DNA from: Umboniibacter marinipuniceus
GTDB lineage: Bacteria > Pseudomonadota > Gammaproteobacteria > Pseudomonadales > DSM-25080
Length of the DNA stretch: 64,000 nucleotides
Direction of reading: 5' to 3'
NCBI RefSeq assembly: GCF_003688415.1
Contig: NZ_REFJ01000005.1
Coordinates: 241,890 to 305,889, forward strand
The notes below the pieces were generated by a model, which searched no databases, had not been told where the DNA came from, and saw nothing but the letters and a program-made list of their open reading frames with translations. The translations under genes were made by a program, and so were the position numbers. Positions 23,883 through 46,249 of this stretch are shown in pieces (the first letter of the stretch is position 1; each line of letters begins with the position of its first letter).

Positions 23883-23974
23883 CCCGTCGTGCGAGCGCTT
23901 CGTACTAAGGTTGTGATCCAATGTCGCTGCTTAGTATGTACAGTCCTATAGATGCAACAAAAAAAGGTTCAGCT

Positions 23975-24708: not shown

Positions 24709-24711
24709 CAC

Positions 24712-26484: not shown

Positions 26485-26502
26485 TTAAGGGGAAGATCAG
26501 AG

Positions 26503-27207
26503 ATGTTGAAAGTAAGCGTATATCGCTACAACCCAGAAGTCGATGCTGCCCCATACATGCAAGACTTTGAGGTTGATCTTAAAGGTAAAGATGTCATGGT
26601 ACTTGATGTACTTGGCATGCTTAAAGAGCAGGATGAGTCCATTACCTATCGCCGTTCTTGTCGCGAAGGTGTCTGTGGTTCGGACGGGATGAATATGGGC
26701 GGTAAGAACGGTTTGGCCTGTATTACCACCGTGAGCTCAGCTTCACGTGGCGGTAAACTTGTTATTCGCCCGCTTCCAGGTTTGCCGGTTGTGCGTGACT
26801 TGATTGTGGATATGAGCCAGTTCTATGCTCAGTACGAGAAAGTAACACCGTTTCTTCAGAATAATACCCCAGCTCCGGCTATTGAACGTCTTCAGTCTCC
26901 TGAAGATCGTGAGAAGCTTGACGGCCTTTACGAGTGTATTCTTTGTGCATGTTGCTCAACAAGCTGCCCATCATTTTGGTGGAATCCAGACAAGTTTATC
27001 GGTCCAGCCGGTCTTCTTCAGGCCTATCGTTTCTTGGCGGACAGTCGAGATACAGCAACTGAAGAGCGACTTGCTCAGTTGGATGATCCATTCAGCGTAT
27101 TCCGTTGTCATGGTATTCAGAATTGCGTCAATGTTTGCCCGAAGGGATTGAACCCAACGCGAGCGATTGGTCATATTCGTACAATGTTACTTCAGCGCGC
27201 AGTCTAA
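26503..27207 (+). CDS. sdhB: Succinate dehydrogenase iron-sulfur subunit
   Basis: SdhB carries electrons from FAD to ubiquinone through three clusters. The 234-residue protein shows all three cysteine sets: SCREGVCGSDGM with a later GLAC for [2Fe-2S], CILCACCSTSCP for [4Fe-4S], and CHGIQNCVNVCPKGLNP completing [4Fe-4S] and [3Fe-4S]. It is preceded by AAGGGGAAG. It ends the sdh cluster, and a terminator-like hairpin lies between it and sucA. Confidence 0.98.
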   Translation: MLKVSVYRYNPEVDAAPYMQDFEVDLKGKDVMVLDVLGMLKEQDESITYRRSCREGVCGSDGMNMGGKNGLACITTVSSASRGGKLVIRPLPGLPVVRDLIVDMSQFYAQYEKVTPFLQNNTPAPAIERLQSPEDREKLDGLYECILCACCSTSCPSFWWNPDKFIGPAGLLQAYRFLADSRDTATEERLAQLDDPFSVFRCHGIQNCVNVCPKGLNPTRAIGHIRTMLLQRAV

Positions 27208-27325
27208 ACTGCGCGTTATTGATTAAGGAATTCGCAGAAATTCCAGACGCCAAAGACATTGGACTGCAAAGTTCGCGGTTATGGTCTTAACTTAGTATGC
27301 GACTAATTACGTATCTAGGTTGACA

Positions 27326-27354
27326 TTGCAACTTGTGTCTCTAGCGTTGATAAT
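27326..27354 (+). promoter_or_regulatory. Weak candidate promoter upstream of sucA
   Basis: TTGCAA (27326-27331) and GATAAT (27349-27354) are separated by 17 bases. A transcript from here would run straight into the hairpin at 27368-27396, so it would be controlled by readthrough. Support is weak. Confidence 0.3.
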
Positions 27355-27367
27355 CCCTCGTAGTAAA

Positions 27368-27396
27368 GGTCGATGAATGTGATCATCGGCCTTTTT
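27368..27396 (+). terminator. Rho-independent terminator or attenuator between sdhB and sucA
   Basis: GGTCGATGA (27368-27376) pairs with TCATCGGCC (27383-27391) through nine pairs including one G-U, with a six-base loop, followed by TTTTT. It lies 160 bases after sdhB and 58 bases before sucA. It should partly or fully separate sdh from suc transcription. Confidence 0.75.
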
Positions 27397-27453
27397 GAGG
27401 ATTAAATGTGGTAAAAATCGGCGGTTTACACGCCCATAAGTGGTGGACTTGCA

Positions 27454-30285
27454 ATGCAAGATAACTCTATGGAAGCGCTTCTGCGTACCTCGCACCTGTC
27501 AGGTGGAAATGCGAGCTATGTTGAAGAACTTTACGAAAGCTATTTGCTTGACCCGAACGCGGTCCCAGAGGACTGGCGCGGTTACTTTGAAAAACTCCCT
27601 CGCGTGGAGGGCTCTCACGCCCAAGACGTTCCGCACTCCGAAATTATTCACCAGTTTGAGTTAATGGCCAAAAATCAGAGCCGTCCGCTTGTTGTTCGCG
27701 GCGAAGGCAGTGCTGATATTGATCATGAGCGCAAGCAGGTTGCAGTGATGGAGCTTATCGCTGGCTATCGCTCGCGAGGTCACCAAAAGGCCAAGCTCGA
27801 TCCGCTAAATCTCACGCAGCAGGATCACGTTCCTTGGTTGGAGTTGGCTTATCACAAGCTTTCGAATGCTGATTTGGACACCATGTTCCAAACAGGTTCA
27901 ACCTTTTTCGACCTGAAAGAGGCTAGCCTTAAGGACATTATTGCCGCCCTTGAGGCTACCTATTGTGGTCCTGTAGGCGTTGAAACAATGCACCTTACGG
28001 ATCTTGATGAGAAGCGTTGGTTGCAGCAGCGCACCGAAAGTGTCCGAGCCAAGCCTGCGTACAGTGCAGAGGTTAAGAAGCACCTTCTCGAGCGCATGAG
28101 CGCTGCCGAAGGGCTTGAAAAGCACCTTGATTCAAAGTACCCAGGAACGAAGCGCTTCGGTCTTGAAGGCGGCGAGAGTCTGATTCCTATGCTGGACGAA
28201 ATGATTCAGCGCTCAGGTTCACACGGTGCTAAAGAGATCGTTATTGGTATGGCGCACCGCGGACGTTTAAATACCCTCGTTAACATCTTGGGTAAGAATC
28301 CAGCGGATCTCTTTGATGAATTCGAAGGTAAGACCTTGGTGGATACCTCTGGTGACGTTAAATATCATCAGGGCTTCTCTTCAAACGTAATGACCTCGGG
28401 TGGCGAAGTCCACTTGGCGATGGCCTTTAACCCATCTCATTTAGAGATTGTATCGCCTGTTGTTGAAGGATCGGTTCGCGCTCGTCAAGATCGTCGTAAT
28501 GACGACGTTCGCAATACCGTCGTTCCTATCGTTATCCATGGCGATGCCGCGTTTGCTGGGCAAGGCGTGGTTCAAGAGACGTTCCAGATGTCTCAGACTC
28601 GCGCATATACTACCGGCGGAACGATTCATATCGTTCTCAATAACCAAGTTGGTTTCACTACCAATAATCGCGAAGACGCTCGCTCTACCATGTACTGTAC
28701 TGACGTGGCTAAGATGATTGAGGCACCCATCCTTCATGTGAATGGTGATGATCCCGAGGCGGTGCTCTTTGTTACGCAGTTGGCGGTTGATTATCGTAAC
28801 GAGTTTAAGAAAGATGTGGTCATTGATTTGGTTTGTTACCGCCGTCGTGGGCATAACGAAACTGATGAACCGTCGGCAACTCAGCCGCTCATGTACAAAG
28901 CCATCAAAGCGCATAAGAGTGCGTTTACCAGCTATTCTGCCAAACTAGAGCGCGAAGGTATCATCGCTGCTGGTTTCGGCCGTGAGTTAATGAATGAGTA
29001 CCGAGCGAAACTAGACTCCGGTAAGGACGTGGCGAATGCCTTAGTTTCCGAGCCTGATTCATCGCTATTCGTTGACTGGACTCCTTACTTAGGGCACGAC
29101 TGGGATGCGGCTGGCGACACTAGCTATCCAATTGCCAAACTCAAAGAGTTAGGCCAGAAGTTATGTGAAGTCCCCGATGGTGTTGTGATGCAACGCCAGG
29201 TCACGAAGATATATGAAGATCGTCGCAAGATGGCCGCTGGTGCACTACCCATCAACTGGGGCATGGCCGAGCTATTAGCCTACGGTACGGTCTTGGATCA
29301 TGGTGCCAGTGTTCGCCTAACCGGGCAGGATGTGGGTCGTGGTACTTTCTCTCATCGTCACGCGGTGGTTCATTCGCAGAAGGACGGTTCATCTTATATT
29401 CCGATGAAACACCTCGCGGAAGATCAGCCACGATTCACTATTAATGATTCGTTGTTGTCGGAAGAAGCAGTACTAGCCTTTGAATATGGTTACTCAACAA
29501 CTCGTCCCAATGCATTAGTTATTTGGGAAGCGCAGTTTGGTGATTTCGCAAACGGTGCACAGGTGGTTATCGACCAGTTCATCACCAGTGGTGAGCACAA
29601 GTGGGGCCGCCTCTGTGGCCTAACTATGCTACTTCCGCATGGTTATGAAGGGCAGGGTCCAGAGCACTCTTCGGCACGATTAGAGAGATTCTTACAGTTA
29701 TGTGCCGAGCATAATATTCAGGTTTGTATCCCAACCACGCCGGCACAGGTCTTCCATATGCTCCGTCGCCAGGTTGTCAGACCAATGCGTCGCCCGCTTG
29801 TGGTAATGAGTCCGAAGTGGATCCTTCGTCATCCCTTAGCTACGTCGTCACTTGAAGATCTCGCGGAAGGTGGCTTCCAGAACGTCTTGCAAGATCCGGC
29901 CGCGGATCCGGCGAAAGTGAAGCGTGTCGTGATGTGTTCGGGCAAGGTTTACTACCACCTCGTGGAAGCTCGAGAAGAAACGGGCCAGGACGATGTGGCC
30001 TTTATCCGATTGGAGCAGCTGTATCCGTTCCCGCGGGAAGAACTTGCCGCGGCACTAGCGCCTTATAAGAACCTAAAGGACGTTGTTTGGTGTCAAGAAG
30101 AGCCAATGAATCAGGGCGCTTGGTACTCTAGCCAGCATCACTTGCACCGTGCTGTTAACGAGCACGATGCAACGCTAGCGCTGAGCTATGTTGGCCGTGA
30201 GGCTTCGGCAGCTCCAGCAGCTGGCTCGATGAGTTTGCACCTTGAACAACAGAAGCGTTTCCTAGCGGACGCACTAAGCGTATAA
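27454..30285 (+). CDS. sucA: 2-oxoglutarate dehydrogenase E1 component
   Basis: SucA is the thiamine-diphosphate E1 of the 2-oxoglutarate dehydrogenase complex; it decarboxylates 2-oxoglutarate and passes the succinyl group to SucB. The 943-residue protein begins like E. coli SucA (MQDNSMEALLRTSHLSG). It has HRGRLNTLVNILGK, the thiamine-diphosphate region with VIHGDAAFAGQGV and TTNNREDARS, and the C-terminal LLPHGYEGQGPEHSSARLERF. The gene is followed at 50 bases by sucB. Confidence 0.98.
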   Translation: MQDNSMEALLRTSHLSGGNASYVEELYESYLLDPNAVPEDWRGYFEKLPRVEGSHAQDVPHSEIIHQFELMAKNQSRPLVVRGEGSADIDHERKQVAVMELIAGYRSRGHQKAKLDPLNLTQQDHVPWLELAYHKLSNADLDTMFQTGSTFFDLKEASLKDIIAALEATYCGPVGVETMHLTDLDEKRWLQQRTESVRAKPAYSAEVKKHLLERMSAAEGLEKHLDSKYPGTKRFGLEGGESLIPMLDEMIQRSGSHGAKEIVIGMAHRGRLNTLVNILGKNPADLFDEFEGKTLVDTSGDVKYHQGFSSNVMTSGGEVHLAMAFNPSHLEIVSPVVEGSVRARQDRRNDDVRNTVVPIVIHGDAAFAGQGVVQETFQMSQTRAYTTGGTIHIVLNNQVGFTTNNREDARSTMYCTDVAKMIEAPILHVNGDDPEAVLFVTQLAVDYRNEFKKDVVIDLVCYRRRGHNETDEPSATQPLMYKAIKAHKSAFTSYSAKLEREGIIAAGFGRELMNEYRAKLDSGKDVANALVSEPDSSLFVDWTPYLGHDWDAAGDTSYPIAKLKELGQKLCEVPDGVVMQRQVTKIYEDRRKMAAGALPINWGMAELLAYGTVLDHGASVRLTGQDVGRGTFSHRHAVVHSQKDGSSYIPMKHLAEDQPRFTINDSLLSEEAVLAFEYGYSTTRPNALVIWEAQFGDFANGAQVVIDQFITSGEHKWGRLCGLTMLLPHGYEGQGPEHSSARLERFLQLCAEHNIQVCIPTTPAQVFHMLRRQVVRPMRRPLVVMSPKWILRHPLATSSLEDLAEGGFQNVLQDPAADPAKVKRVVMCSGKVYYHLVEAREETGQDDVAFIRLEQLYPFPREELAAALAPYKNLKDVVWCQEEPMNQGAWYSSQHHLHRAVNEHDATLALSYVGREASAAPAAGSMSLHLEQQKRFLADALSV

Positions 30286-30335
30286 TTATTGAACACTTGA
30301 TGGGTAATCCCACAAAACAAGCGAGCATATAAACA

Positions 30336-32998
<2,663 letters not shown>

Positions 32999-33016
32999 AA
33001 TATAAGTTTTTAATCG

Positions 33017-33074
33017 AAGCGTCATAGGTAAATTGTTTGCTGCATTGATTGGGCATCTATCTAGGACGCTTTTC
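33017..33074 (+). terminator. Interrupted inverted repeat between lpd and sucC, possible attenuator
   Basis: AAGCGTC (33017-33023) pairs with GACGCTT (33065-33071). After one mismatch TAG pairs with CTA, and a short TTTT run follows. The loop is more than 30 bases, so this is at best a weak terminator in the 112-base lpd-sucC gap. Confidence 0.35.
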
Positions 33075-33110
33075 TTGTGTTCCCCCAGGGACAATTAAGG
33101 TGGTAAAAAA

Positions 33111-34277
33111 ATGAACTTGCACGAGTATCAAGGTAAGCAGCTGTTCCGTCAGTATGGCCTACCTGTGTCAGATGGCATTGCCTGTGACACCCCAGAAGAA
33201 GCGGTAGCTGCGGCTAAGAAGATTGGCGGAGACATGTGGGTTGTTAAAGCCCAGGTCCATGCTGGCGGTCGTGGTAAAGCGGGCGGCGTTAAGTTGTTAA
33301 ACAACTTTGATGACATCCATGCTTTCGCTGACAAATGGTTAGGTAAGAACCTTGTAACCTATCAGACAGACGAAAATGGTCAGCCAGTTGCTAAGATCTT
33401 AGTTGAGACTTGCACCGACATCGCTCAGGAGCTTTACCTCGGCGCGGTTGTAGATCGTTCAACTCGTCGTGTTATCTTCATGGCCTCTACCGAAGGTGGC
33501 GTTGAGATTGAGAAAGTAGCTGAAGAGACTCCAGAAAAGATTCTTCAGGCCATCATCGATCCAGTTTGTGGCGCTCAGCCATACCAGGCTCGCGAGCTTG
33601 GCTTCAAGTTAGGCTTGAACCCAGTTCAGATGAAGCAATTCACTAAGATCTTCTTGGGCTTGGCAAAGATGTTCACCGAGAAAGACTTAGATCTTCTTGA
33701 GATCAACCCATTGGTTATCACTGACGAAGGCAACTTGCACTGTCTTGACGCGAAAGTGTCTATTGATAGCAACGCCGTATACCGTCACAAAGATATCCAA
33801 GAAATGCACGATCCTTCACAGGAAGACGAGCGTGAAGCACATGCTGCTCAGTTCGAACTTAACTACGTAGCGCTCGATGGCAACATCGGCTGTATGGTTA
33901 ACGGTGCAGGCCTAGCAATGGGTACCATGGATATTGTTAAGCTACACGGTGGCGAGCCAGCTAACTTCCTAGATGTTGGTGGCGGCGCCACAAAAGAGCG
34001 TGTAACGGAAGCATTCAAAATCATTCTTTCTGACACCAGTGTTAAAGCCGTTTTGGTTAACATCTTCGGTGGTATCGTTCGTTGCGATCTAATTGCTGAC
34101 GGCATCATTGGTGCAGTGAAAGAAGTTGGCGTTGAAGTTCCAGTTGTTGTTCGCCTTGAAGGTAACAACGCTGAGCTTGGCGCAAAAGTATTGGCAGAAA
34201 GTGGTCTTGGCGTAATTGCTGCGACGAGCTTAACTGATGCAGCTGAAAAAGTTGTTGCTGCAGCGGAGGGCAAATAA
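33111..34277 (+). CDS. sucC: Succinyl-CoA synthetase beta subunit (ADP-forming type)
   Basis: SucC and SucD convert succinyl-CoA to succinate with substrate-level formation of a nucleoside triphosphate. The 388-residue protein is full length. It opens with [20 protein letters not shown] and has an ATP-grasp N-terminal domain ([19 protein letters not shown]) and the C-terminal [17 protein letters not shown]. The ATG follows AAGGTGG. Its stop shares one base with the sucD start (TAATG). Confidence 0.98.
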
Positions 34278-35149
34278 TGAGCGTATTAATCAATAAAGAC
34301 ACCAAGGTAATCTGTCAGGGTTTCACTGGTGGTCAGGGTACTTTCCACTCTGAGCAAGCCATTGCATACGGTACCAACATGGTTGGCGGTGTAACGCCGG
34401 GTAAAGGCGGTACAACTCACCTTGGGCTTCCGGTATTTAACACGGTTAAAGAAGCGGTAGAAGCTACTGGTGCTGATGCCTCGGTTATCTACGTACCGGC
34501 TCCTTTCTGTAAGGACTCTATCATTGAAGCAGCCTACTCAGGCGTTAAGCTGATCGTGGCGATTACCGAAGGTATCCCAACGCTTGATATGCTTGAAGCA
34601 AAAGTTGTGTGTGATAACCAGGGCGTTCGTCTGATTGGACCAAACTGCCCAGGTGTCATCACTCCTGGAGAGTGTAAGATCGGTATCATGCCGGGTCACA
34701 TTCACTTGCCAGGTAAAGTTGGCATCGTATCGCGTTCTGGTACCTTGACCTACGAAGCGGTTAAGCAGACGACTGATCACGGTTTCGGCCAGTCTACCTG
34801 TGTTGGTATAGGTGGTGACCCAATTCCTGGTTCTAACTTCATCGACATTCTAGAAATGTTCGAGAATGATCCTAAGACCGAAGCAATCGTAATGATTGGT
34901 GAGATCGGTGGTTCTGCAGAAGAAGAAGCAGCTGCTTACATCAAAGCAAATGTGACTAAGCCTGTTGTTTCTTACATTGCGGGTGTTACAGCGCCAGCAG
35001 GTAAGCGTATGGGTCACGCGGGCGCAATTATCGCTGGCGGTAAGGGTACTGCAGACGAGAAGTTCGCAGCACTGGAAGATGCAGGCGTGAAGACAGTTCG
35101 TTCTTTGGCTGGTATCGGTGATGCACTGAAGGAAATCACTGGCTGGTAA
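34277..35149 (+). CDS. sucD: Succinyl-CoA synthetase alpha subunit
   Basis: SucD binds CoA and carries the phosphohistidine intermediate. The 290-residue protein begins [24 protein letters not shown], has [19 protein letters not shown], and carries the phosphorylated His in the C-terminal [13 protein letters not shown]. It overlaps sucC by one base and ends at a strong terminator that closes the TCA block. Confidence 0.98.
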
Positions 35150-35407: not shown

Positions 35408-36145
35408 ATGAAACGGGTAATACAGCTACTGATGGGCGCAATGCTTATCGCCGGCGCGCTTTATCTTGCCTTTGAACCGTCGTTGACTGACGATTCTGGC
35501 AACACCAGGGCAACCAACTCAGCGCCAGCAAGCGGTGAGAATTCTTCTGAGTCTAGAGGTGATGGGGACGGTGGTGATCGCGCAGCGGCCGCTAACAGCG
35601 AGAATAGCGAAAACTCGGCAAATCAGCCCATTGGTTCCACTCAGACTACTACGCAAATCCCTCTGGATCTTCCTGCCGGCGCAACGGCCGAAGAGAATGC
35701 TGCACTGCTTACGGGTTGGCTTCAGGAGCAGGGTTGGCTTGGCGAGCATGATGAATTAGTAGAGTTGTTTAATTCTGGCGCCGTGGGGAGCGTTGAGGTT
35801 GAACGAGTGAGGCAGTTTCACAATGGCTTGCCCGTCTACGACTCTAACCTTGTGGTGCTTCGCAGAGATAACGTGTTGGTGGAGCTTGATGGCGCACTTG
35901 CGGTGGATGTCAATTTAGATGTAGAACCCACGGTTAGTATTGAAGCTGCATGGGAAACGGCCAGCGCTAGTGTTAGTTTCAGTGTCGTGGCAGCAGTGCC
36001 GGAGGCGCTGCAAGTTCACTCCCGGGCCGGCGAGAGTCACTTAGTCTGGGTCTTTAGGGGTGGCGATATGCGCGCCCGTACAGAAGTGCTCGTTGATGCG
36101 CACAGCAATGAGGTGTTGAGAAAGGTCACCAAAGGAGCAATTTAA
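35408..36145 (+). CDS. FTP-like (thermolysin propeptide) membrane-anchored protein
   Basis: The 245-residue protein has an N-terminal membrane segment (residues 5-20), a Ser/Asn/Glu/Gly-rich linker (about 26-85), and a C-terminal domain of about 160 residues. The latter resembles the fungalysin/thermolysin propeptide plus PepSY fold: VRQFHNGLPVYDSNLVVLRR, then HLVWVFRGG and TEVLVDAHSNEVLRKV. Such propeptides chaperone and inhibit their own protease. Here no protease domain follows in the same chain, but the next gene, two bases downstream, is a thermolysin-like protease, so this is probably its propeptide supplied in trans (inference). It is the first gene of a ten-gene operon. CAGGA lies eight bases before the ATG. 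Confidence 0.75.
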   Translation: MKRVIQLLMGAMLIAGALYLAFEPSLTDDSGNTRATNSAPASGENSSESRGDGDGGDRAAAANSENSENSANQPIGSTQTTTQIPLDLPAGATAEENAALLTGWLQEQGWLGEHDELVELFNSGAVGSVEVERVRQFHNGLPVYDSNLVVLRRDNVLVELDGALAVDVNLDVEPTVSIEAAWETASASVSFSVVAAVPEALQVHSRAGESHLVWVFRGGDMRARTEVLVDAHSNEVLRKVTKGAI

Positions 36146-36147
36146 TT

Positions 36148-37887
36148 ATGTTAATTAGATTAGCCCTAGTAACCGCTCTATTTTGTCTTTCATCGCTAAC
36201 GGTTGCCAATCAGCCAGTGGCCCACATCTTTGATTATCAGCGATTCTGTGCACAACATAAGAATCGCCCCTCGCAGGATCAATGGTGGCGCTATTTGGTG
36301 GCGCTATCTGGCCGAATTGATGGTGATATCCGAGTATATCGAAATCACCTTGAGGGTAATGGCGATCCGTTAGTGATGGCGATTAGCCAGAATGCTCAAT
36401 ACTACGATGCCTTCCGTAGACTGATGGGAATGGACGGCGTAGACGGAAGAGGCCTAAGGCACAATCTGTTGGTTAATATGAACCGAGGCTCGAATGGTGA
36501 ACCCTTCGAATGTGGAGACGGTGAAGTCTTCGATGCCATGAGTGTTCGCCAAGGTAATGAACTTTCCTTTGACGCCTTTAGTAAAACAACCATGGCCTTG
36601 GAAGAAGTGGTTGGTCATGAGGCTTATCATGCATTTATTGGTTACAATTCCGCTTTAGAATACGAGTTTCAGTCTGGCGCACTCAATGAGGCGCTCGCCG
36701 ATGCCTTTGGCGTTGTTTTCCGTCAATGGCTAGAATCCGGGCGGCCCGATAATCCCGCTGATATTCAATCACGTTCAAATGCGCTTTGGCAGTTGCGAGA
36801 TGTGGGACAGCCGCTTCGCGATATGATCAGCCCAAATAATCACGATCAGCCTGATCACATGAATCAGTATATTAAGCTGCCCAATACGGCGGACGGGGAT
36901 TGGGGGGGCGTTCATTACAACTCAGGCATCATCAACCACGCTTTTTTTCTATTGGCGGAGGGTGGTCAACATCGACGTCTTGGCTCAGGGCCAACGGTCT
37001 CCGGGATTGGTCCCTACAAAGCCTTAACTATCTGGCATAGTGGCGCCATTTTGATGCACCCGTACAGCGATTTCCGCGATGCGCGCGAGAAGTTTCAACG
37101 TGCCGCGGTGGAGTTATTCGGTCATGGGAGCGGTGAAGTTCAATCGCTGGTGAACGCCTTGGACGCCGTTGGTATTGCCTTTGTGCCACTTCCACAGGCC
37201 CCGGTAACAACTCCGGGCCCAACAGAGCCAGAAGAAACTATACCTCCTGTTAATGATCCTGTTACGGTACCCACGCCGCCCGAGACAAGCGCGGATCCCG
37301 TGGTCATCGATACCAACCCTAACCCAGGGCCAGTCGTAACCAATCCCGCGCCGACGCCCGGGCCGGTGATGGCAAACCCTGAGCCCGAGCCCACTGAGGG
37401 AACCGAAGCTAAGCGTTGGTGGCTGATAGGGCTGTTACTGGTCGCCGGTGGCGCCCTGCTATGGTTAAGTCGAAGGCAGCCGTTTGCCGAAACAGCTAGC
37501 ACAGTAGCCAGTCCAGCGTGGTCTTCGGTACAACAGGCGTCCAGAAAAGCGGATTCAGATAACGCCAGCGCAGGTACCAGTAAGGACTTTAAAATCCACA
37601 TCGATGGGGCAAAGCTGTACTTGGACCCAGCGCTCTTGCGAACAAAGGATGGTCAAGTTTTTGGACGGTCGGCCAATTTTTGCCACGTGGTACTGGCGAA
37701 CGCGGCAATATCAAGGCGACATCTTCGTGTTTGTTTGGTTGACAAGGCACTTTGGGTGACCGATCTGAATAGCCAGGCGGGGGTGATGGTGAATGGCCAG
37801 TCGATCCCGCCGATGCAGCCAGTCCGATGGGAAATTGGTGACACTCTGAGTGTTGCTAACCGGGTTAAATTGGAGCGTAAATCATGA
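36148..37887 (+). CDS. Thermolysin-like (M4) metalloprotease with TM helix and cytoplasmic FHA domain
   Basis: The 579-residue protein has a signal peptide (1-20) and an M4 catalytic region. Zinc motif HEAYH (157-161), third ligand E181 in GALNEALADAFG, and H256 in GGVHYNSGIINHAF (counterpart of thermolysin His231) are all present, so it should be active. A Pro/Thr-rich linker (350-420) leads to a TM helix (about 424-441) and then a C-terminal FHA domain (about 481-575: FGRS, SRRH, NSQAGVMVNG). An extracytoplasmic protease joined to a cytoplasmic phosphothreonine reader is unusual. It overlaps the next FHA gene by four bases. Confidence 0.85.
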   Translation: MLIRLALVTALFCLSSLTVANQPVAHIFDYQRFCAQHKNRPSQDQWWRYLVALSGRIDGDIRVYRNHLEGNGDPLVMAISQNAQYYDAFRRLMGMDGVDGRGLRHNLLVNMNRGSNGEPFECGDGEVFDAMSVRQGNELSFDAFSKTTMALEEVVGHEAYHAFIGYNSALEYEFQSGALNEALADAFGVVFRQWLESGRPDNPADIQSRSNALWQLRDVGQPLRDMISPNNHDQPDHMNQYIKLPNTADGDWGGVHYNSGIINHAFFLLAEGGQHRRLGSGPTVSGIGPYKALTIWHSGAILMHPYSDFRDAREKFQRAAVELFGHGSGEVQSLVNALDAVGIAFVPLPQAPVTTPGPTEPEETIPPVNDPVTVPTPPETSADPVVIDTNPNPGPVVTNPAPTPGPVMANPEPEPTEGTEAKRWWLIGLLLVAGGALLWLSRRQPFAETASTVASPAWSSVQQASRKADSDNASAGTSKDFKIHIDGAKLYLDPALLRTKDGQVFGRSANFCHVVLANAAISRRHLRVCLVDKALWVTDLNSQAGVMVNGQSIPPMQPVRWEIGDTLSVANRVKLERKS

Positions 37888-38153
37888 GCAGCTTCACCAC
37901 CTATTTCTTCGGCAGAGATCAGAGCAACTCCATTGTATTGGATGATCCAAGTATCTCTCGCTTTCACTGTGAGTTGACCGTTAATGGCGACGACTGTCTG
38001 CTAGTTGATGCGAACTCGACCCACGGCTGTTTTGTGGAGCGCAATGGTGACTGGGAAAGCGTGAAGAACAGCCAGCTTAAATTGACGGATAAGGTTAAAA
38101 TTGGCCGCTTGAGTGGCCTGTTGAAGGATTTTATAAAGGGAGAAAAGGCGTGA
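37884..38153 (+). CDS. Small single-domain FHA protein
   Basis: The 89-residue protein is almost only an FHA domain. The core residues are present: GRD (10-12), SISRFH (23-28) and the NSTHG loop (44-48, where most have NSxNG). FHA domains bind phosphothreonine peptides. With no other domain, it could act as an adaptor between phosphorylated partners of the operon. It starts inside the end of the protease gene (ATGA), and its stop overlaps the next start (GTGA). Confidence 0.8.
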   Translation: MSSFTTYFFGRDQSNSIVLDDPSISRFHCELTVNGDDCLLVDANSTHGCFVERNGDWESVKNSQLKLTDKVKIGRLSGLLKDFIKGEKA

Positions 38154-38959
38154 CCAATATTTTGGAGATCAAAGAGAGTCACTTGAGGGTAACCGTGGCG
38201 TTAATCTCTGTGATATTGGCAGCGGTGTGGATTTTAGTCATTGATTTGGCGTTGAATACACCTGCCGATGGAATCAGAATTGTGGATGTGCTGATTGATA
38301 GGGCGAATGAGCTTTATCCGTTCACCATTCAGAATTTGATGTGGATTTTCTTTTTCTTTGGCCTTGGCGAATTATGGATTCGTAACCAGCGAGCCAATAT
38401 TGAGGCGCAGCAGCTGGGGCTTAGGCTGCTCCCGGAAGATGAAGAAACACTATTGCGCGGCAAAGACCTCGGAAGTATCGTGCTGTCGATTCGCGGAGCC
38501 GGTTCGCAGCGTCTCTATTATCTTCAGGAATTGATAATGCGCACTATTCAACAATTCCGACTCAATGACTCGGTTGCACAGGCGGATAGCCTGTTGAACA
38601 CTTCGTTGGACCTCATTCACGCCGAACTCGATATTAAATACAATATGTTGCGCTACATCAGTTGGTTGCTACCAACGCTGGGCTTCATTGGTACCGTAGT
38701 GGGTATTTCCCTTGCGCTGGGTGAGGCGGGCAACATGCCTGAGGTGACTGATGGTGACGCAATTAAAGCGTGGATGGGCCTGCTCACGGCCAAGCTAGGC
38801 ATTGCCTTTAACACAACATTAGTGGCGCTGCTGCAGTCCGCCGTACTAGTGTTTCTTATTCATATTGTGCAGGCGAAAGAAGAAGAGGGCGTCAATCGTA
38901 TTGGTCGCTACTGTCTACACAATCTCATTAATCGTTTGTACGAATCGCAAGAGAGGTAA
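38150..38959 (+). CDS. MotA/TolQ/ExbB-like membrane protein
   Basis: The 269-residue protein has four predicted membrane helices (about 13-35, 58-77, 168-190 and 216-240). A cytoplasmic part lies between the second and third. The third helix contains WLLPTLGFIGTVVGISLAL, the conserved block of MotA/TolQ/ExbB proton-channel proteins, and the fourth has LGIAFNTTLVALLQSAVLVFL. These proteins work with a MotB/TolR/ExbD partner having an Asp-bearing helix; the vWA protein at 41886 has such an N terminus. The start is GTG with AAAAGG before it. Confidence 0.8.
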   Translation: MTNILEIKESHLRVTVALISVILAAVWILVIDLALNTPADGIRIVDVLIDRANELYPFTIQNLMWIFFFFGLGELWIRNQRANIEAQQLGLRLLPEDEETLLRGKDLGSIVLSIRGAGSQRLYYLQELIMRTIQQFRLNDSVAQADSLLNTSLDLIHAELDIKYNMLRYISWLLPTLGFIGTVVGISLALGEAGNMPEVTDGDAIKAWMGLLTAKLGIAFNTTLVALLQSAVLVFLIHIVQAKEEEGVNRIGRYCLHNLINRLYESQER

Positions 38960-38964
38960 TTGTT

Positions 38965-39690
38965 ATGCCGGCAAAAATTGGCCCCGATGGGAAGCCCATC
39001 GTTGTAGATACTGTTCCGTTTAAAGCAGATTATCAAGATGATGATGCCACTGCTCCCTATGACCCTAACGCTGATCGACGTACGCCAAGCAACTTTGATG
39101 AAGATGAGGCGACCGCACCGTTTTCGACTCAGACAGCAGGGGCCACATCGCCGATGGCCGACCCTACACGGGCGCTTGATATTGAGGAAGTCGAAGTCAA
39201 TATTCGCGGCGCGAAACAAGCACCAGTCAGTGCGGTAGTTGAAGAAGATGACGAGGCTACTCAGGTCTACCGAGCGCCTCGACCGTCGTCATCGACTCAC
39301 GCTGCTGAAGCGGGCGCACCAACAGAAGCCGAACAGACTTCCGTAGCGATGCAGGATCCTCCAGTGGGTTGGTTAGTGGTCACTGACGGACCAGGTAAGG
39401 GCGAGGTCGTTACCATCGGCTACGGACAAAATTCCGTCGGGCGTTCGGGCGCACGCATCAATTTGAATTTTGGTGATAGTGAAATCTCTCGCGAGTCACA
39501 CATTACGGTCATTTATGATCCTAACGCTCGAGCCTTTTATGTGGGGCCAGGCACCGGGAAGTCGCTGGGTTACCTAAACGGTTCACCTATCTTGATGCCG
39601 GTAGCCATGAATAATTCTGATGAGCTGAAGCTAGGAGCTACTGCCCTTCGCTTTGTTGCACTTTGTGGCGAAGGCTTTGGTTGGGAATAG
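38965..39690 (+). CDS. FHA-domain protein with repeated acidic Ala-Thr motifs
   Basis: The 241-residue soluble protein has an N-terminal flexible half and a C-terminal FHA domain (about 134-236: VGRSGARINL, EISRESH, then a YLNGSP loop). The first half carries three similar motifs, DDDATAPYDP, DEDEATAPFS and DDEATQVYRAP, with threonines at 29, 50 and 99. The third resembles the ETTxVFR phosphorylation site of GarA-type FHA proteins. I infer that the kinase of this operon phosphorylates these threonines and that the FHA domain may then bind them in cis or on partners. It ends directly before the phosphatase gene. Confidence 0.8.
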   Translation: MPAKIGPDGKPIVVDTVPFKADYQDDDATAPYDPNADRRTPSNFDEDEATAPFSTQTAGATSPMADPTRALDIEEVEVNIRGAKQAPVSAVVEEDDEATQVYRAPRPSSSTHAAEAGAPTEAEQTSVAMQDPPVGWLVVTDGPGKGEVVTIGYGQNSVGRSGARINLNFGDSEISRESHITVIYDPNARAFYVGPGTGKSLGYLNGSPILMPVAMNNSDELKLGATALRFVALCGEGFGWE

Positions 39691-40458
39691 ATGTTGGAAT
39701 TTGATGTAGGCGTCAGCCAGTGGCAGGGGCGAAGAGCCTATCAGCAAGATAGCGTGACTGCGCAATACCTCGCTAATGACCGGTTGTTGGCCGTAGTCTG
39801 TGATGGTATGGGTGGAACCGTTGGCGGTGAAGTTGCTGCGTCAGCGGCCCTCGATGCAATTGTTAGTCGCTTCGACCCACATGCTGATGATTTATCAGCG
39901 CAGTGGTTACAGCTTGCAGGTGCAGCGAATAACGCCCTGGCTAAAGCCATCAAGGCCGATGAGGCACTGGCATCAATGGGAACGACTTTGGTGTCACTGT
40001 TTATTGATAAACAGGGGTTAAGGTGGTTGAGCGTTGGCGACTCGCCGTTGTGGCTGTTTCGCGATGGTGAGCTCCAGCGTCTTAATATTGATGAGTCTTA
40101 CGGCGGCTTTTTAGATCGCGAGGCCGCGGCGGGACATATCAGTTGGGAGGAAGCACGGTCGAACACCAAGCGACACCAGCTTATGAATGTCTTACAGGGG
40201 AAGAAGTCGTTAGTCGTTAATGATATCGCCGATGAGGCGGTGGTACTGCAGAGTAATGATGTGCTCCTGCTTGCGTCAGATGGTATTCAGACGCTTAGCG
40301 ATGGCCATATTGCTCATGTGATGCGGGAGCACCTTGGTGAATCAGCAAATAGTATTACGGAGCAGTTAATGCGTGCCGTTCATAGGGAAAACCACCCGAA
40401 ACAGGACAACGTGTCTATCGCGTTGATCAAAGTAGAGCAAGGGAGTGAGTCAGAATGA
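39691..40458 (+). CDS. PP2C-type serine/threonine phosphatase (soluble)
   Basis: The 255-residue cytoplasmic phosphatase has the full PPM set: D20 in AYQQD, CDGMGG (D38), GTTLVS, SVGDSPLWLF, LLLASDGI and KQDNVSIAL, so it should bind two metal ions and be active. It would reverse phosphorylation by the operon's kinase. The ATG follows the preceding stop without a gap (TAGATG), and its own end overlaps the next start (ATGA). Confidence 0.9.
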   Translation: MLEFDVGVSQWQGRRAYQQDSVTAQYLANDRLLAVVCDGMGGTVGGEVAASAALDAIVSRFDPHADDLSAQWLQLAGAANNALAKAIKADEALASMGTTLVSLFIDKQGLRWLSVGDSPLWLFRDGELQRLNIDESYGGFLDREAAAGHISWEEARSNTKRHQLMNVLQGKKSLVVNDIADEAVVLQSNDVLLLASDGIQTLSDGHIAHVMREHLGESANSITEQLMRAVHRENHPKQDNVSIALIKVEQGSESE

Positions 40459-41882
40459 AATCCATCATAGCTACCGCCATTTTAGCTGCCTTAGTCAGTG
40501 CGCCGACGGTTGCCCAGACCGCCTTAGAGGTGTTGTCAAATAAGCGAGGTGACACGATTGCTGAGGGGCTCGCCATTCCAGTTACTCAACAGGTGGTCGT
40601 GACCCGCCGCAGCTTGCTTGATAATGGCGATACCGTTGCTGTGGTTGACCCCGTTAGTGGTGCCAGACTTCAGGCGGACGTGTTGGCCTCTGATCGTGAA
40701 ACCGGGTTTAGCATTTTGTCGGTAAACGGCGCGAACTTTCAACCTTTGACATTCAGTGCTAGCGAGCTGCGAGCAGGGGAACGCATTGCGTTGTTAACCG
40801 CTGCTGAGCAGCGAAGTGGATTCGTTTTGGCTCAGCTTGATGGTGGTATCTTTCAGCATGATGTGAGCTATGCAGTCAACGAAGTGGGCGCCATGGTGTT
40901 GAATCGCTGTGGCGAATTAGCTGGCTGGAATGTCGATCAGTTTTCGGGCGTATTCGCCTCTGAGCTGAGCGGCTCTGAGGTTCCCGTAGATGCGAAGGGC
41001 CTTAGTGCGTTGGTCACACTGTTGCAGAATAATCAGGTCAAAATATCAATCGCTGCCAATGCGTGCCCTAGTCTAGAAGAAGAGGCTGATGCCGCTCGCC
41101 AAGCCGCTCAAGAGGAGCTTGAGCGCATTGAGTCGGAGCTAGCGGAACAGCAAGCTGAGCTTGAGGCACAGCGACAGGCGGCGGAGGAAGCTGCTGCCCA
41201 AGCGGAGGCCGAGCGCGAACAGTCAGAAGCCGCGGCGGCCGCTGCCCGCGACGCTGAGGCGGAACTCGCCGCTCGCGAAGCCGAACTGGAGGCGCAGCGT
41301 CAGGAAGCTGAGGCGGCACAAGCCGCTGCAGCCGCTGAACAAGAAGCGGAGCTCGCGGCCGCCGCCGCAGCGCTCGAAGCAGAGCAGCAAGCCCGAGAAG
41401 AAGCGATGGCGCGTGCCGAGCAGGAAGCTTCAAGAAAACAGCAGTTAACGCTTATTGGCGCACTTGCCGGTGTGATTGGCCTAGTGGTGCTATTACTGGT
41501 AGTGATTCGCTCCCGCAAGCGTCAAACAGCGTTAGATGAAGCCAAGGCGCGGTTTAACGATGTGCTGCTAAGCGGCCATGACGGCGGTGGCAACCCTTAT
41601 CGGGTTCGTATTGATGGAGGCGCGCTGCGGCAGGCGGAAAATGGCTTAGTGATAGGTAAGAATGCCTCGCAAGCGCAGGTGGTGATTGCCAATCCTCAGG
41701 TATCACGCACTCATGCTCGTATCTGGGTGGAAGATAACGGCTTGAAGTTGACTGACCTTGGCAGCTCGAACGGAACGCAGGTCAATGATGTCCCGCTTCA
41801 AGTTGGGCAGGTGGTGGCGTTAACGGCTGGAGATAAGTTGGCGCTAGGTGGTGTCTTCCTTAACGTGGAACTACTGGATTGA
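40455..41882 (+). CDS. Degenerate trypsin-like domain, coiled coil, TM helix and FHA domain
   Basis: The 475-residue protein has a signal peptide (1-20), then a domain of about 170 residues with the pattern of trypsin-like (DegP-type) proteases. The expected catalytic sites are lost: VVVTRRSLL where a catalytic His is expected, ETGFSILSV for the Asp block and EVGAMVLNRCGELAGW for the Gly-Asn-Ser-Gly block. A long Ala/Glu/Gln coiled coil (about 207-328), a TM helix (331-352) and a cytoplasmic FHA domain (about 382-475: GKNA in place of GR, SRTH, GSSNG) follow. I infer a non-catalytic extracytoplasmic sensor or scaffold that connects to phosphothreonine signalling inside the cell. Confidence 0.75.
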   Translation: MKSIIATAILAALVSAPTVAQTALEVLSNKRGDTIAEGLAIPVTQQVVVTRRSLLDNGDTVAVVDPVSGARLQADVLASDRETGFSILSVNGANFQPLTFSASELRAGERIALLTAAEQRSGFVLAQLDGGIFQHDVSYAVNEVGAMVLNRCGELAGWNVDQFSGVFASELSGSEVPVDAKGLSALVTLLQNNQVKISIAANACPSLEEEADAARQAAQEELERIESELAEQQAELEAQRQAAEEAAAQAEAEREQSEAAAAAARDAEAELAAREAELEAQRQEAEAAQAAAAAEQEAELAAAAAALEAEQQAREEAMARAEQEASRKQQLTLIGALAGVIGLVVLLLVVIRSRKRQTALDEAKARFNDVLLSGHDGGGNPYRVRIDGGALRQAENGLVIGKNASQAQVVIANPQVSRTHARIWVEDNGLKLTDLGSSNGTQVNDVPLQVGQVVALTAGDKLALGGVFLNVELLD

Positions 41883-41885
41883 GCT

Positions 41886-42734
41886 ATGAAGCGTAAAAAG
41901 CGGGAAGTCAGTGCGTTTAATATGTCGGCGGTGGATCTCTTCGCCTCGGCAATGGGAGCGTTTATTCTCCTTGCTGTGATTGCTCTACCGTTCTTCCCTA
42001 AAACCTCGGAAACGCCGCCGGCGCCGGTTTGTCCTGAACCATCGCCGGTGCTGCCGGTCCCCGCGGCCTGTCCCGATCCAGTGGTTCAAACCTGCCCGGT
42101 ATGTCCACCGGTTCCAGAAGAGGCGTTCGTACTCAAGGACATTGATCTTGTGATTGTCCTGGATGTTACTGGCAGTATGGATGAGTCCATTGAGGGGTTG
42201 AAGAATACCACTTCGGACTTAGTCGCGCTGTTAGCGCGTTTGGCTCCCACCTTTTCAGTGGGTATTGTCACTTTTGGTGATTATGGTTTTGATCAACCTA
42301 CTCAAGTATTTAATCTCCGTGAAATGTCCAGTGAGCAAGATATTGAGGCGCTGAATCGTTTTGTTGGTCAGGTTCGAGAAGGCTGGGGTATTGGCGGTGG
42401 AGACTATCTCTACGAAGGCGAGGCGCTATCTGCGGGACTGGAGATAGCGGTCGCGATGCCCTTTAGACCTGAAGCCAAAGAGCGGAGAATTGTTGTCTTT
42501 ACGGATGATGTGGCGACCTACCAGAGTCGTGCTGAAGGTCTTGTTCGCCAGTTTGCGTCAGGGTCGTCGGGCGACGTGAGCCAGACTGTGTCGGTGGTTC
42601 TTACGGACCCAAAGAACAATCCTGATGCGGCGAGAGTAATGGAGCAGTTGGCTACCACTGGGCAGGGCTTCTATTCCTCGTCTTCGGGCTCCTTTATTGG
42701 CAAGCTGTTACTTGCTTTAATTGACGGAAGTTGA
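41886..42734 (+). CDS. von Willebrand A domain protein with MotB/ExbD-like N-terminal anchor
   Basis: The 282-residue protein starts with a short basic stretch and one TM helix (about 16-37). The Asp-bearing entry SAVDLFASAMGAF is like the N terminus of MotB/TolR/ExbD-type proteins. A Cys/Pro-rich linker (43-78, five Cys) follows, then a vWA domain in the periplasm with the metal-site motif DVTGS (93-97), TFGDYG and VFTDDVATY. It probably pairs with the MotA/TolQ-like protein at 38150 (inference). The linker cysteines could form disulfides. Confidence 0.78.
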   Translation: MKRKKREVSAFNMSAVDLFASAMGAFILLAVIALPFFPKTSETPPAPVCPEPSPVLPVPAACPDPVVQTCPVCPPVPEEAFVLKDIDLVIVLDVTGSMDESIEGLKNTTSDLVALLARLAPTFSVGIVTFGDYGFDQPTQVFNLREMSSEQDIEALNRFVGQVREGWGIGGGDYLYEGEALSAGLEIAVAMPFRPEAKERRIVVFTDDVATYQSRAEGLVRQFASGSSGDVSQTVSVVLTDPKNNPDAARVMEQLATTGQGFYSSSSGSFIGKLLLALIDGS

Positions 42735-42737
42735 TTG

Positions 42738-43937
42738 ATGACTACTTACCATGCGCAACGTCAGGGAGATCGGCCTTACCAGGAAGATTGCTTCACGACC
42801 ATCCAGACGGACCAGTATCAGCTGCTAGTAGTAGCCGATGGACTTGGAGGTCACGACGCGGGTGATGTGGCGGCAAAACTGATTGTCGAGCTCGTGACTG
42901 CAGCGTCCACCGAACTCCCCGAGTTGAGCCCGCTGGAGGCAAAAATTAAACTGCGGGCTTGGTTTGAACCAATTGTTAGAAGCTTTCAAGCTGATTTAGC
43001 GAGTCAGGAACAGGCTACTGATGCCCACACAACGGTGGCAATTGCTATTATTCGCGCGGATCAGCTTTATACCCTTACGGTAGGGGACTCGCGAGTTTAT
43101 GTCTGTGGCGAGCATAGCCTCTGGCGAAGTCGAGATCATTCCGTGGTTCAGATGCTGGTTGATGACGGAGAGATTAGTGAAGCGGAGATGGCTGCCCACC
43201 CTGAACAGGGTAAGTTGTATCAGAGTATTGGTCCTAACAAGACCGTAAAACCCAGAGTTTCGCATAGGGAGCTAACTGCCACGGATGTGGTGCTCGTCGC
43301 GAGCGATGGTTTTTGGGAAGGTGTCAGCGATGAAGAGTTACAGGGCTTCGCAATTGATCCATCGCAACAACGCCTTGATTGCTTGGTTGATCTAGCCTGT
43401 GAACGGCGTGCGCCGAAGGCAGATAATACCACCGTAATTTCCTTTGAAAATAATACGACAACGAGACCTCTAATGACAGATGAAGTGAACTCAACCCCCA
43501 CAGCGAGCGCCAAACAGCCAGATAACCCTAAGCGTGCGGATTTTTCCAGCGGAGCAATCAACAGGCGCCGAGATCGCTTTATTGCTTTGGCCCTCGTTCT
43601 GTTGATTGTGCTGTTGGTAGTCTGGGGAGGAAGCGGCGACGATAGCGCTGATGTTGCCAGTGCTGAGCAAGCGGATGAGGCGGCGCAGACTAGCTGTATG
43701 CTTGAAGCGGTATATGAGGCTGAGGACGAGGGTATTCGAATAGTACTAAGCTCTATAGATGACGGCACTGAACAGATCGTCACATTGCCAATTCGCCCAG
43801 GCAAATACCGTGTGAGGTTAGAAGATCGTCATGGTGAGTGTCAAAATCTGCGAGACGAACAGGGTGAAACTGAATTGAAGAAGAAATTTGAGCGCCAGCT
43901 ATTGCGTTCATCCACAGTATCAATGGAAGTCCTATGA
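42738..43937 (+). CDS. Membrane-anchored PP2C-type phosphatase
   Basis: The 399-residue protein has an N-terminal PPM phosphatase domain (about 1-238). Motifs include RPYQED, VADGLGGHDAG, TVGDSRVYV, LVASDGFWEGVSDEE and KADNTTVIS. A TM helix follows (about 281-297), then about 100 extracytoplasmic residues with two cysteines and no recognised fold. I took the ATG at 42738; the TTG just before it directly follows the vWA stop. It is the second phosphatase of the operon, probably acting at the membrane on the same phosphoproteins. Its last codons overlap the kinase start. Confidence 0.88.
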   Translation: MTTYHAQRQGDRPYQEDCFTTIQTDQYQLLVVADGLGGHDAGDVAAKLIVELVTAASTELPELSPLEAKIKLRAWFEPIVRSFQADLASQEQATDAHTTVAIAIIRADQLYTLTVGDSRVYVCGEHSLWRSRDHSVVQMLVDDGEISEAEMAAHPEQGKLYQSIGPNKTVKPRVSHRELTATDVVLVASDGFWEGVSDEELQGFAIDPSQQRLDCLVDLACERRAPKADNTTVISFENNTTTRPLMTDEVNSTPTASAKQPDNPKRADFSSGAINRRRDRFIALALVLLIVLLVVWGGSGDDSADVASAEQADEAAQTSCMLEAVYEAEDEGIRIVLSSIDDGTEQIVTLPIRPGKYRVRLEDRHGECQNLRDEQGETELKKKFERQLLRSSTVSMEVL

Positions 43938-46249
43938 GTAGAGCACAGCAATCAACCCACCTGCCTCTTGGTACTCGATTAGGCGAATATGAGATTCAAG
44001 CGGTTCTTGGCCAAGGTGGCTTTGGCATTACCTACAAGGCGTGGGATAGCACTTTGGCATGCTACGTAGCACTTAAGGAATATTTTCCTAAGCATTTAGC
44101 TAATCGGAATACTGACAGTGTTTCCATTCGGCCAGCAAGTCGTGAAGATGAATCCTCGTATCAGAAGGGCTTAACGAGCTTTGTTGAAGAGGCTAGGGTG
44201 TTGGCGCAGTTTCAACATCCTGGAGTCGTACCGGTAAAACGTCTGGTCAAAGCCAACCAAACCGCTTATATGGTGATGGGGTTTGTTGAGGGCGAAACAC
44301 TCACAGAGTATATGAAGAAGAGTGGTGGTAAGGTGGCAGCGTCGCAACTTATTGCCTGGACAGATCAGTTACTCTCGGCGCTCGATAAGGTACATCAGGC
44401 TGGCCTATTACACCGCGATATTAAACCCGGCAATGTCTACATTGGCTCCGATGGCAACGCGATGTTATTGGACTTCGGTGCGGCACGACGCGTTGCTGCA
44501 GAGGCGTCGCAATCTATCACCGGTGTGATCTCAGCAGGCTATTCGCCAATTGAACAATATTCAGAGAGTACCAAGAATCAGGGTCCTTGGACGGATATTT
44601 ATAGCCTTTCCGCAACACTCTATCGCTGTATAACTGGTGTTAAACCTATTGAAGCCACGGCTCGCCGCGATGAAATGGATGATGGTGATCCTGATCCGGT
44701 TGCCGCGTTAAATCCATCGAGTTATCCCGATTTTCCCGCGGGTTTTATTCTAGCAGTGTGGCAGGGCATGGCGGTTATTCGTAAGCATCGGATTCGCGAT
44801 GTGAGTGCCTATCGCGAAGTGATGAATGCCTCACTTAATTCGCCATCGCCGCAGAAACCAATAGCACCCGTGACGCCCCCCCCTCAGCCGGCTCGTCCAA
44901 GCGGCCCGTCAACCTCAGGACCCCAGTCTAAGGTGGGCTCTGGCCCCCAATCACAGGGTTCTACTCATTCATCCGCTAAGGTGCCAATAAGTAGTGGTGG
45001 GCGCGTGGTTCAGATCATTCTGGCCGTGGTGGCGGTTGCAGTGGTAGCCATCGTAATCATTAACCCCTTCGCCAAGAAAGAGGATCCAATATTAGATCAT
45101 GGTGGCGGTAGCGAGGAAGTTCAACTTCATTCAGTTTCGGTTAATGTTAAGCCAAGCGCTGCCGTCGATCGCATTTTGATTAATGGTTCAAGTGTCGCTA
45201 ATGGTGCCACGACGAGCCTTGCCGAGGGAGAGCATCACGTTGAAATTCGCGGTGCGAGTGGCTATTCCAATGTAGATGAGCGCATTTTCGTTGACCGAAA
45301 TAATCGCCAGTTCGAGTTTAGTTTAACTCAGGACCTCGTTCCCTTGACGCTTACACTAACGCCCTCTAACGCACGAGTCATTCTACCGGATCTGCCAGCA
45401 AACGTGACCTATCGTCCAGGCGTTCAACTTCCCCGCGGCACCCATCGAGTGCGCGTTATCGCCAGCGGTTATCAGCGATACGAGGGAAGTATTGACCTGA
45501 ACCAGGGGTCAAACTGGCAGATTACCCTCGAGCGAGCAACGCCGATTGCACAAATCAATGCGCAGATGGTGGCGATACCTGCCGGGCGCTTTAATATGGG
45601 TGGGGATGTATACACCGATGAGAAGCCAGTGCACCGAGTTAATGTCCCCGCTTTTGAACTGCAGAAGACCGAAGTTACTTGGGAGCAATACCGGGAATGT
45701 GTCAATGCCGGGGGCTGCACCGCGCCGGCGAATTCATCATCGTTTGCCGATGATGAGCCGGTTCGCAGCGTGTCTTGGGATGACGCGCAGCGTTTTATCA
45801 GTTGGCTAAACCGTGAAACGGGATCTTCGTATAGGCTGCCTTCCGAATCGGAATGGGAGTACGCGGCAAGAGCTGGCTCAGGGGCGCGATACAGTTCCGG
45901 AAACACCCTTTACTGTGATGACGCTCGCTATGGGCAGGTTGAAGATGGTGCCTGTTATAATGGCGGCAGTGGTCCCGTGGAAGTAGGAAGCTACCGAGCT
46001 AATAATTTCGGTTTGTATGATATGGCGGGTAACGTCAACGAATGGGTAGAAGATTGTTTCTACAACGATTATAACGGCGCCCCCAATGATGGCTCAGCAT
46101 GGGTTCGCAAAGCTGACTGTAGCGTTCGTTCTATGCGCGGCGGCGGTTGGGCTGGTTCGGTAGAGCAAGTGGCCGCTCCGTATCGTAATAGTGATCAACG
46201 CGATGCAACGTTTACCGATGTAGGTTTTCGCTTAGCAAGAAGTCGGTAG
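43934..46249 (+). CDS. Transmembrane Ser/Thr kinase with PEGA and SUMF1 (FGE-sulfatase) domains
   Basis: The 771-residue protein has a cytoplasmic Hanks-type kinase (about 18-290). Motifs are GQGGFG (26-31), catalytic Lys48 in ALKEYF, HRDIKPGN (160-167) and DFG (180-182), so it looks active. A Pro/Ser-rich juxtamembrane part and a TM helix (358-378) follow. Outside are two PEGA-like repeats (about 395-535) and a SUMF1 / formylglycine-generating-type domain (about 540-771: MVAIPAGRFNMGG, RLPSESEWEYAARAG, GLYDMAGNVNEWVED, RGGGW). In kinases this domain usually serves as a ligand-binding module. It is the last operon gene and the only kinase. Confidence 0.9.
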   Translation: MSRAQQSTHLPLGTRLGEYEIQAVLGQGGFGITYKAWDSTLACYVALKEYFPKHLANRNTDSVSIRPASREDESSYQKGLTSFVEEARVLAQFQHPGVVPVKRLVKANQTAYMVMGFVEGETLTEYMKKSGGKVAASQLIAWTDQLLSALDKVHQAGLLHRDIKPGNVYIGSDGNAMLLDFGAARRVAAEASQSITGVISAGYSPIEQYSESTKNQGPWTDIYSLSATLYRCITGVKPIEATARRDEMDDGDPDPVAALNPSSYPDFPAGFILAVWQGMAVIRKHRIRDVSAYREVMNASLNSPSPQKPIAPVTPPPQPARPSGPSTSGPQSKVGSGPQSQGSTHSSAKVPISSGGRVVQIILAVVAVAVVAIVIINPFAKKEDPILDHGGGSEEVQLHSVSVNVKPSAAVDRILINGSSVANGATTSLAEGEHHVEIRGASGYSNVDERIFVDRNNRQFEFSLTQDLVPLTLTLTPSNARVILPDLPANVTYRPGVQLPRGTHRVRVIASGYQRYEGSIDLNQGSNWQITLERATPIAQINAQMVAIPAGRFNMGGDVYTDEKPVHRVNVPAFELQKTEVTWEQYRECVNAGGCTAPANSSSFADDEPVRSVSWDDAQRFISWLNRETGSSYRLPSESEWEYAARAGSGARYSSGNTLYCDDARYGQVEDGACYNGGSGPVEVGSYRANNFGLYDMAGNVNEWVEDCFYNDYNGAPNDGSAWVRKADCSVRSMRGGGWAGSVEQVAAPYRNSDQRDATFTDVGFRLARSR

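Follow-up and report, generated by a model that had tools for sequence, protein, structure and literature searches.

FHA proteins of the GarA/OdhI/FhaB type serve as phospho-switches in Actinobacteria, where GarA and OdhI regulate 2-oxoglutarate dehydrogenase; such proteins act on metabolic enzymes. In the threonine phosphorylation pathway of the type VI secretion system (T6SS), formed by PpkA, PppA and Fha1 with TagQRST, TagR resembles SUMF1, and PpkA includes a vWA domain. This pathway ties a kinase, a PP2C phosphatase and an FHA protein to envelope sensing (PMC10482370). In the Agl-Glt gliding machinery of Myxococcus, a TolQR-type motor works with GltG, a bitopic protein with a cytosolic FHA domain (PMC3169522), and the recently described TPH-vWA/TolQ-like motors combine a TolQ-like pentamer subunit with a transmembrane (TM)-anchored vWA protein that carries a MotB/ExbD-type Asp, with neither tolR nor exbD (Williams-Jones et al. 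2025, PMC12204202). The vWA proteins of this family come mostly as heterologous pairs, a usual but not universal arrangement, and no kinase, phosphatase or FHA protein is mentioned where the family is described (PMC12204202). Here we analyze a ten-gene operon of Umboniibacter marinipuniceus, located at positions 35408-46249 of a 64,000-nucleotide stretch of contig NZ_REFJ01000005.1 (the window).

We propose that the operon encodes a phosphothreonine relay in the inner membrane, through which extracytoplasmic proteolysis or the state of the envelope is coupled to a 5:2 motor driven by the proton-motive force, a reading to which we assign a probability of about 0.55. If it is correct, the gating of a MotAB/ExbBD-type motor by Ser/Thr phosphorylation and the control of a transmembrane phosphatase through a protease propeptide would both be, to our knowledge, undescribed. 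Furthermore, the kinase and two residues described below, Thr99 of g05 and Asp17 of g08, would offer a function-ready handle on the TPH-vWA motors, a widespread group reported in 2025 without a known role.

Operon organization

All ten open reading frames (ORFs; g01 to g10) lie on the + strand, and the nine junctions between them measure +2, −4, −4, +5, 0, −4, +3, 0 and −4 bases. Overlaps of 4 bases and gaps of at most 5 are strong sequence evidence for a single operon. Topologies were deduced from the hydrophobic segments and the basic residues next to them. In gene order, with the two residues on which the argument turns, the features are:

35408..36145, + strand: g01, membrane-anchored FTP/thermolysin-type propeptide domain, apart from its protease (Pfam FTP 0.0011, sub-cut-off; AlphaFold2 (AF2) model)
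36148..37887, + strand: g02, signal sequence, M4 metallopeptidase, TM, cytoplasmic FHA (Pfam M4_C 2e-35, FHA 7e-13)
37884..38153, + strand: g03, 89-aa stand-alone FHA domain, regularly directly upstream of the MotA-like gene (Pfam FHA 6e-16, synteny)
38150..38959, + strand: g04, MotA/TolQ/ExbB-type motor protein (Pfam MotA_ExbB 2e-08)
38965..39690, + strand: g05, GarA/OdhI-like cytoplasmic FHA protein with a long disordered N-terminal linker (family profile, AF2 and Foldseek)
39259..39261, + strand: g05 Thr99 codon, predicted phospho-switch site in the context DDEATQVYR (conservation, GarA alignment)
39691..40458, + strand: g06, soluble PP2C phosphatase with intact metal-binding motifs (Pfam PP2C_2 8e-13; Stp1 family 2e-36)
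40455..41882, + strand: g07, signal sequence, trypsin-like pseudoprotease, coiled coil, TM, C-terminal FHA (Pfam FHA 2e-15)
41886..42734, + strand: g08, N-terminal MotB/ExbD-like transpore helix and periplasmic vWA domain (Pfam VWA 2e-09)
41934..41936, + strand: g08 Asp17 codon, transpore-helix Asp predicted to bind the ion (invariant in 19/19 homologues)
42735..43937, + strand: g09, PP2C phosphatase, TM, short periplasmic tail (Pfam PP2C_2 5e-17)
43934..46249, + strand: g10, Ser/Thr kinase, TM, PEGA, SUMF1/FGE (Pfam Pkinase 1e-31, PEGA 2e-07, FGE 2e-51)

This inventory agrees with that of an earlier note on the same DNA, which had described ten genes with overlaps or gaps of at most five bases, one Ser/Thr kinase with two PP2C phosphatases, a MotA/TolQ-like channel protein with a vWA protein, a thermolysin-type propeptide, and four FHA readers (Pfam FHA in g02, g03 and g07; profile and AF2 matches to GarA/OdhI for g05). 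Two of these readers are, as the note had it, fused to protease-like domains (M4_C in g02 and a Trypsin_2-related family in g07).

The unit travels together in distant genomes

A scan of genome contigs with a motor profile yielded 15 loci, to which searches of relatives, the class, the order and one plasmid added others. In the 24 genomes of the motor clade, the neighbours of the motor gene comprise FHA (24), the g05 family (23), PP2C (22), kinase (20), a transpore-helix protein (19), a protease-like-TM-FHA protein (19) and M4-TM-FHA (8), and where a member is missing the contig is mostly short or truncated. A search in the reverse direction gave the same association: among 392 genomes of the order, seven carry the g05 family and six the motor, and all six motor genomes are shared (Fisher p=1.4e-12). 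The earlier note would have given up the idea of an independent system had the homologues lain apart in other genomes or, in most relatives, beside T6SS genes; what we found is a unit that travels together in 24 genomes and, in the carriers tested, is not next to T6SS genes.

The carriers include Gammaproteobacteria, Alphaproteobacteria (Nioella, Rhizobium), two metagenome-assembled genomes (MAGs) recorded as Bacteroidota and one recorded as Latescibacterota, the last with the locus on a 2.5-Mb contig. Pseudomaricurvus sp. HS19 and Gammaproteobacteria bacterium LSUCC0112 are among the cultured carriers. Gene order and adjacency hold at 30-50% identity between classes, and they hold also in the MAGs recorded under other phyla. 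The distribution is patchy: the class has 6 carriers among 369 genomes and the order 6 among 392, or about 1-2%. The plasmid search returned one true relative, R. leguminosarum pRlBT01d. As the motor tree intermixes carriers of different taxa, these data point to spread by horizontal transfer, with the caveat of MAG binning.

The motor-like pair

The channel residues P175, T182, T222 and T223 of g04 are invariant (alignment A2), and the 24 members of its clade stand apart from the sister clade with 100/100 support. In g08 homologues, the transpore-helix motif is common to 19/19 proteins, whose heads are vWA in some and different in others. The pair thus has the residues that an ion-driven 5:2 motor should contain, in keeping with the drive by ion flow that the earlier note had considered possible. 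A sequence search of the PDB with the motor profile gave no match. In six loci (L056, L058, L059, L060, L061 and L070), the vWA head of the g08 homologue is swapped for a domain with the pattern DVDLHVxDPxG...GPGNEIWL, which Pfam left unnamed in both of the copies examined with it, those of L056 and L058, and which is perhaps DUF2135-like.

The next-closest MotA-like clade comprises 15 sister loci (L033, L035-L048), separated with 100/100 support, and at none of the 15 does FHA, PP2C or kinase stand beside the motor. These loci hold PEGA-SUMF1 and two heterologous TM proteins with a transpore helix, and the cluster is widespread and fits the published TPH-vWA family. In the one member checked with Pfam (L047), the first TM protein carries vWA, and genes for an M48 protease and a TPR protein lie nearby. 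The window motor resembles the TPH-vWA family in its TolQ-like subunit, its TM-vWA protein with an ion-binding Asp and its lack of tolR and exbD, and PEGA-SUMF1 occurs beside the sister motors as it does in the window operon. Unlike them, it forms a separate clade inside a phospho-signalling operon, and window-type core loci hold one transpore-helix protein (two in the sister loci), whose head is sometimes not vWA.

In Agl-Glt, too, a TolQR-type motor is joined with a bitopic FHA protein, but GltG has a TonB-type periplasmic domain, the ExbD-type subunits (AglQ/AglS) are separate, and no kinase/PP2C/protease-FHA set is described. Literature searches, whose coverage lay outside subscription papers, found no paper describing the composition of the operon. 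We regard the motor as a new clade within a known kind of motor, and the complete set as an unnamed combined system matching no named one. The earlier note's remark that it knew no named system with this composition holds for the full set and has to be given up for the motor/TM-vWA pair, which belongs to an already described superfamily.

A predicted GarA-like phospho-switch

Although g05 has no Pfam match, its family profile matches GarA and OdhI in the PDB (3e-4), and the AF2 model of its FHA domain (predicted local distance difference test score of ~90) has GarA as the best Foldseek match (7rj3, 2e-7). Thr99 is the sole fully invariant residue of the otherwise variable linker in 12/12 divergent proteins (alignment A3), and the stretch around it aligns with the phosphosite region of GarA, ETTSVFR. 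A T-x-[VIL] motif located 15-45 residues before the FHA domain is present in 16/16 divergent g05 homologues, which are related and not independent sequences (shuffle mean 4.8, maximum 13 in 20,000). As such, g05 displays two features of GarA/OdhI, the FHA fold and a conserved phosphorylatable Thr in an N-terminal tail. It differs from GarA/OdhI/FhaB in its longer linker and in its place in a motor/protease operon of Gram-negative bacteria.

The kinase and the phosphatases

The kinase motifs VALK, HRDIKPGN and DFG of g10 are intact, and, judging by sequence, this kinase and both PP2C phosphatases are apparently active. The active-site cysteines that follow the RGG motif were not found in the SUMF1/FGE part of g10, where the stretch RGGGWAGSVEQVAAPYR contains no Cys, and the SUMF1 domain is therefore probably a binding or sensing domain.

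The propeptide and the tethered proteases

The Pfam FTP score of g01 is 19.2, against a cut-off of 21 bits, and the three best PDB matches of its AF2 model are propeptides of vibriolysin MCP-02 (3nqz_A, 3nqy_A) and fungalysin (4k90_B), with E values of 2.6e-3 to 4.7e-3. The M4 motifs of g02 are present (HEAYH at residues 157-161 and the downstream Glu motif NEALAD). In a profile search, PP2C-TM-FTP fusions were found adjoining M4-TM-FHA in L050 (1e-61), L053 (7e-50) and L085 (1e-51), the last with a Pfam FTP score of 24.9 (cut-off 21). The two halves of this fused protein are separate genes in the window, g09 and g01. These fusions give independent support to the earlier note's proposal that extracytoplasmic protease domains are coupled to the FHA/phosphatase switch; we infer that the ten proteins may join in one complex.

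The N-terminal domain of g07 belongs to the same iterated-profile family as proteins scored Trypsin_2 by Pfam. Its catalytic His and Ser are replaced, and the triad is intact in homologues from L058, L071, L062, L057 and L075. An active trypsin-like-FHA protein is encoded at 0/6 loci with M4, where it is either inactive or missing, versus 9/11 loci without M4 (p=0.002, the lineages not being independent). It thus replaces M4 elsewhere, as if one active tethered protease were needed. Four loci (L054, L056, L062 and L071) carry paired active and inactive trypsin-like-TM-FHA genes, which suggests protease/pseudoprotease partners.

Proposed mechanism

Combining these observations, we propose the following model. 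The ectodomain of g10 would sense an envelope ligand or a cleavage product and thereby set kinase activity. The kinase would then phosphorylate Thr99 of g05 and perhaps the tails of other members, and the phosphothreonine would be bound by the g05 FHA domain in cis, as in GarA/OdhI, or by g02, g03 or g07 in trans, so that a membrane complex is assembled or released. The FTP domain of g01 may hold or mature the M4 protease, the state of which would be reported to the phosphatase, because the transmembrane PP2C of relatives has the FTP domain as its ectodomain. Finally, the g05/g03 switch would gate the motor formed by five g04 and two g08 subunits, and the vWA head would be turned or pulled in the periplasm to act on an envelope target. 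Sensing by g10 and the gating of the motor are the least certain steps. Taken further, the locus may represent a distinct, horizontally moving trans-envelope machine, in which a phospho-switch, set by tethered proteases and a phosphatase with a propeptide ectodomain, directly controls a rotary ion motor; we advance this wider proposal tentatively, at somewhat less than even odds.

Several observations weigh against the relay-to-motor model. The sequence match of g05 to GarA is weak (3e-4), and in any single linker the T-x-[VIL] motif is not significant (shuffled rate 0.15-0.67), so that our claim is restricted to its positional conservation; in L106 the linker has TRRV in its place. M4 and SUMF1 each occur in 8/24 loci, from which it follows that the ectodomains are exchangeable. 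L034 has a motor gene and no transpore-helix gene, though its contig begins at the operon. Finally, L106, the seventh genome with g05, has a kinase, a PP2C, g05 and two protease-like-TM-FHA proteins and no motor, meaning that the motor is not obligatory and the switch need not act on it.

The motor-less core would suit a rival view, in which the motor-like pair is a mere scaffold or an input that senses envelope load or ion-motive force, and in which the system's output is to phosphorylate targets in other parts of the cell. GarA/OdhI-type proteins do act on metabolic enzymes, and in the window genus the operon directly follows sdh-sucAB-lpd-sucCD. The suc neighbourhood is, however, confined to that genus, and the channel Thr and Asp are strictly conserved, as expected of a working motor. 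We consider this explanation unlikely and favor the motor as the output. A neighbourhood of common signalling domains brought together by chance or by a loose functional relation would account for the differences in membership between loci, each domain family being common, yet it is scarcely credible in view of the order and adjacency held across classes and other-phylum MAGs and of the reverse co-occurrence.

Kinship with the T6SS pathway has in its favor that a TM Ser/Thr kinase, a PP2C and an FHA reader are encoded together in both; the operon could be a stand-alone relative that still serves type VI or another secretion apparatus, and T6SS is present in 5/22 carriers. The window operon, however, also encodes a motor, proteases and a phosphatase that spans the membrane, and the sheath marker VipB (PF05943) is missing from 17/22 carriers tested and TssF (PF05947) from 18/22. 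Both are absent from the window genome (99.4% complete), which extends to the genome, for these two markers, the earlier note's finding of no tss gene. In the five VipB-positive carriers the markers lie on other contigs than the operon, and no Tss gene was recognised in the loci read. Membership of T6SS is rejected on these grounds, and the broader kinship is largely refuted. An anti-phage defence of the Zorya kind, with motor, sensing and effector, would suit the patchy distribution and the MotA-like subunit with its ion-motor partner, g04 matching ZorA weakly (8e-05). It is nonetheless improbable: the operon has no nuclease or helicase effector and no peptidoglycan-binding ZorB-type anchor, PADLOC found no system and no ZorB, ZorC/D or ZorE partner beyond the weak ZorA, and the flanking genes of the few loci inspected mostly have no defence match and form no PADLOC system.

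Genomic setting and further observations

On its upstream side the operon is preceded by sdhCDAB, sucAB, lpd and sucCD (named from their sequences), a tricarboxylic acid (TCA) cycle cluster at 23921-35149 of the window, and sucCD adjoins the operon in 3/3 members of the genus. An unrelated gene on the opposite strand lies downstream. None of the flanking genes recurs at other core loci, and the sdh/suc neighbours are found in the same genus only; we therefore set the TCA link aside, and the proximity of this cluster to the GarA-like g05 is probably a coincidence. Promoter and terminator scans performed no better than shuffles.

The motor-less signalling core of L106 (5446-12449) consists of two protease-like-TM-FHA genes, a kinase-TM gene, a GarA-like FHA gene and a PP2C gene. 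On the Rhizobium leguminosarum plasmid, a 1610-aa protein with no Pfam match is encoded inside the system (L070:14111-18940). An 811-aa FHA-FHA-ABC transporter fusion is encoded at L086:199-2631, between the M4-FHA and TM-vWA genes of the same system.

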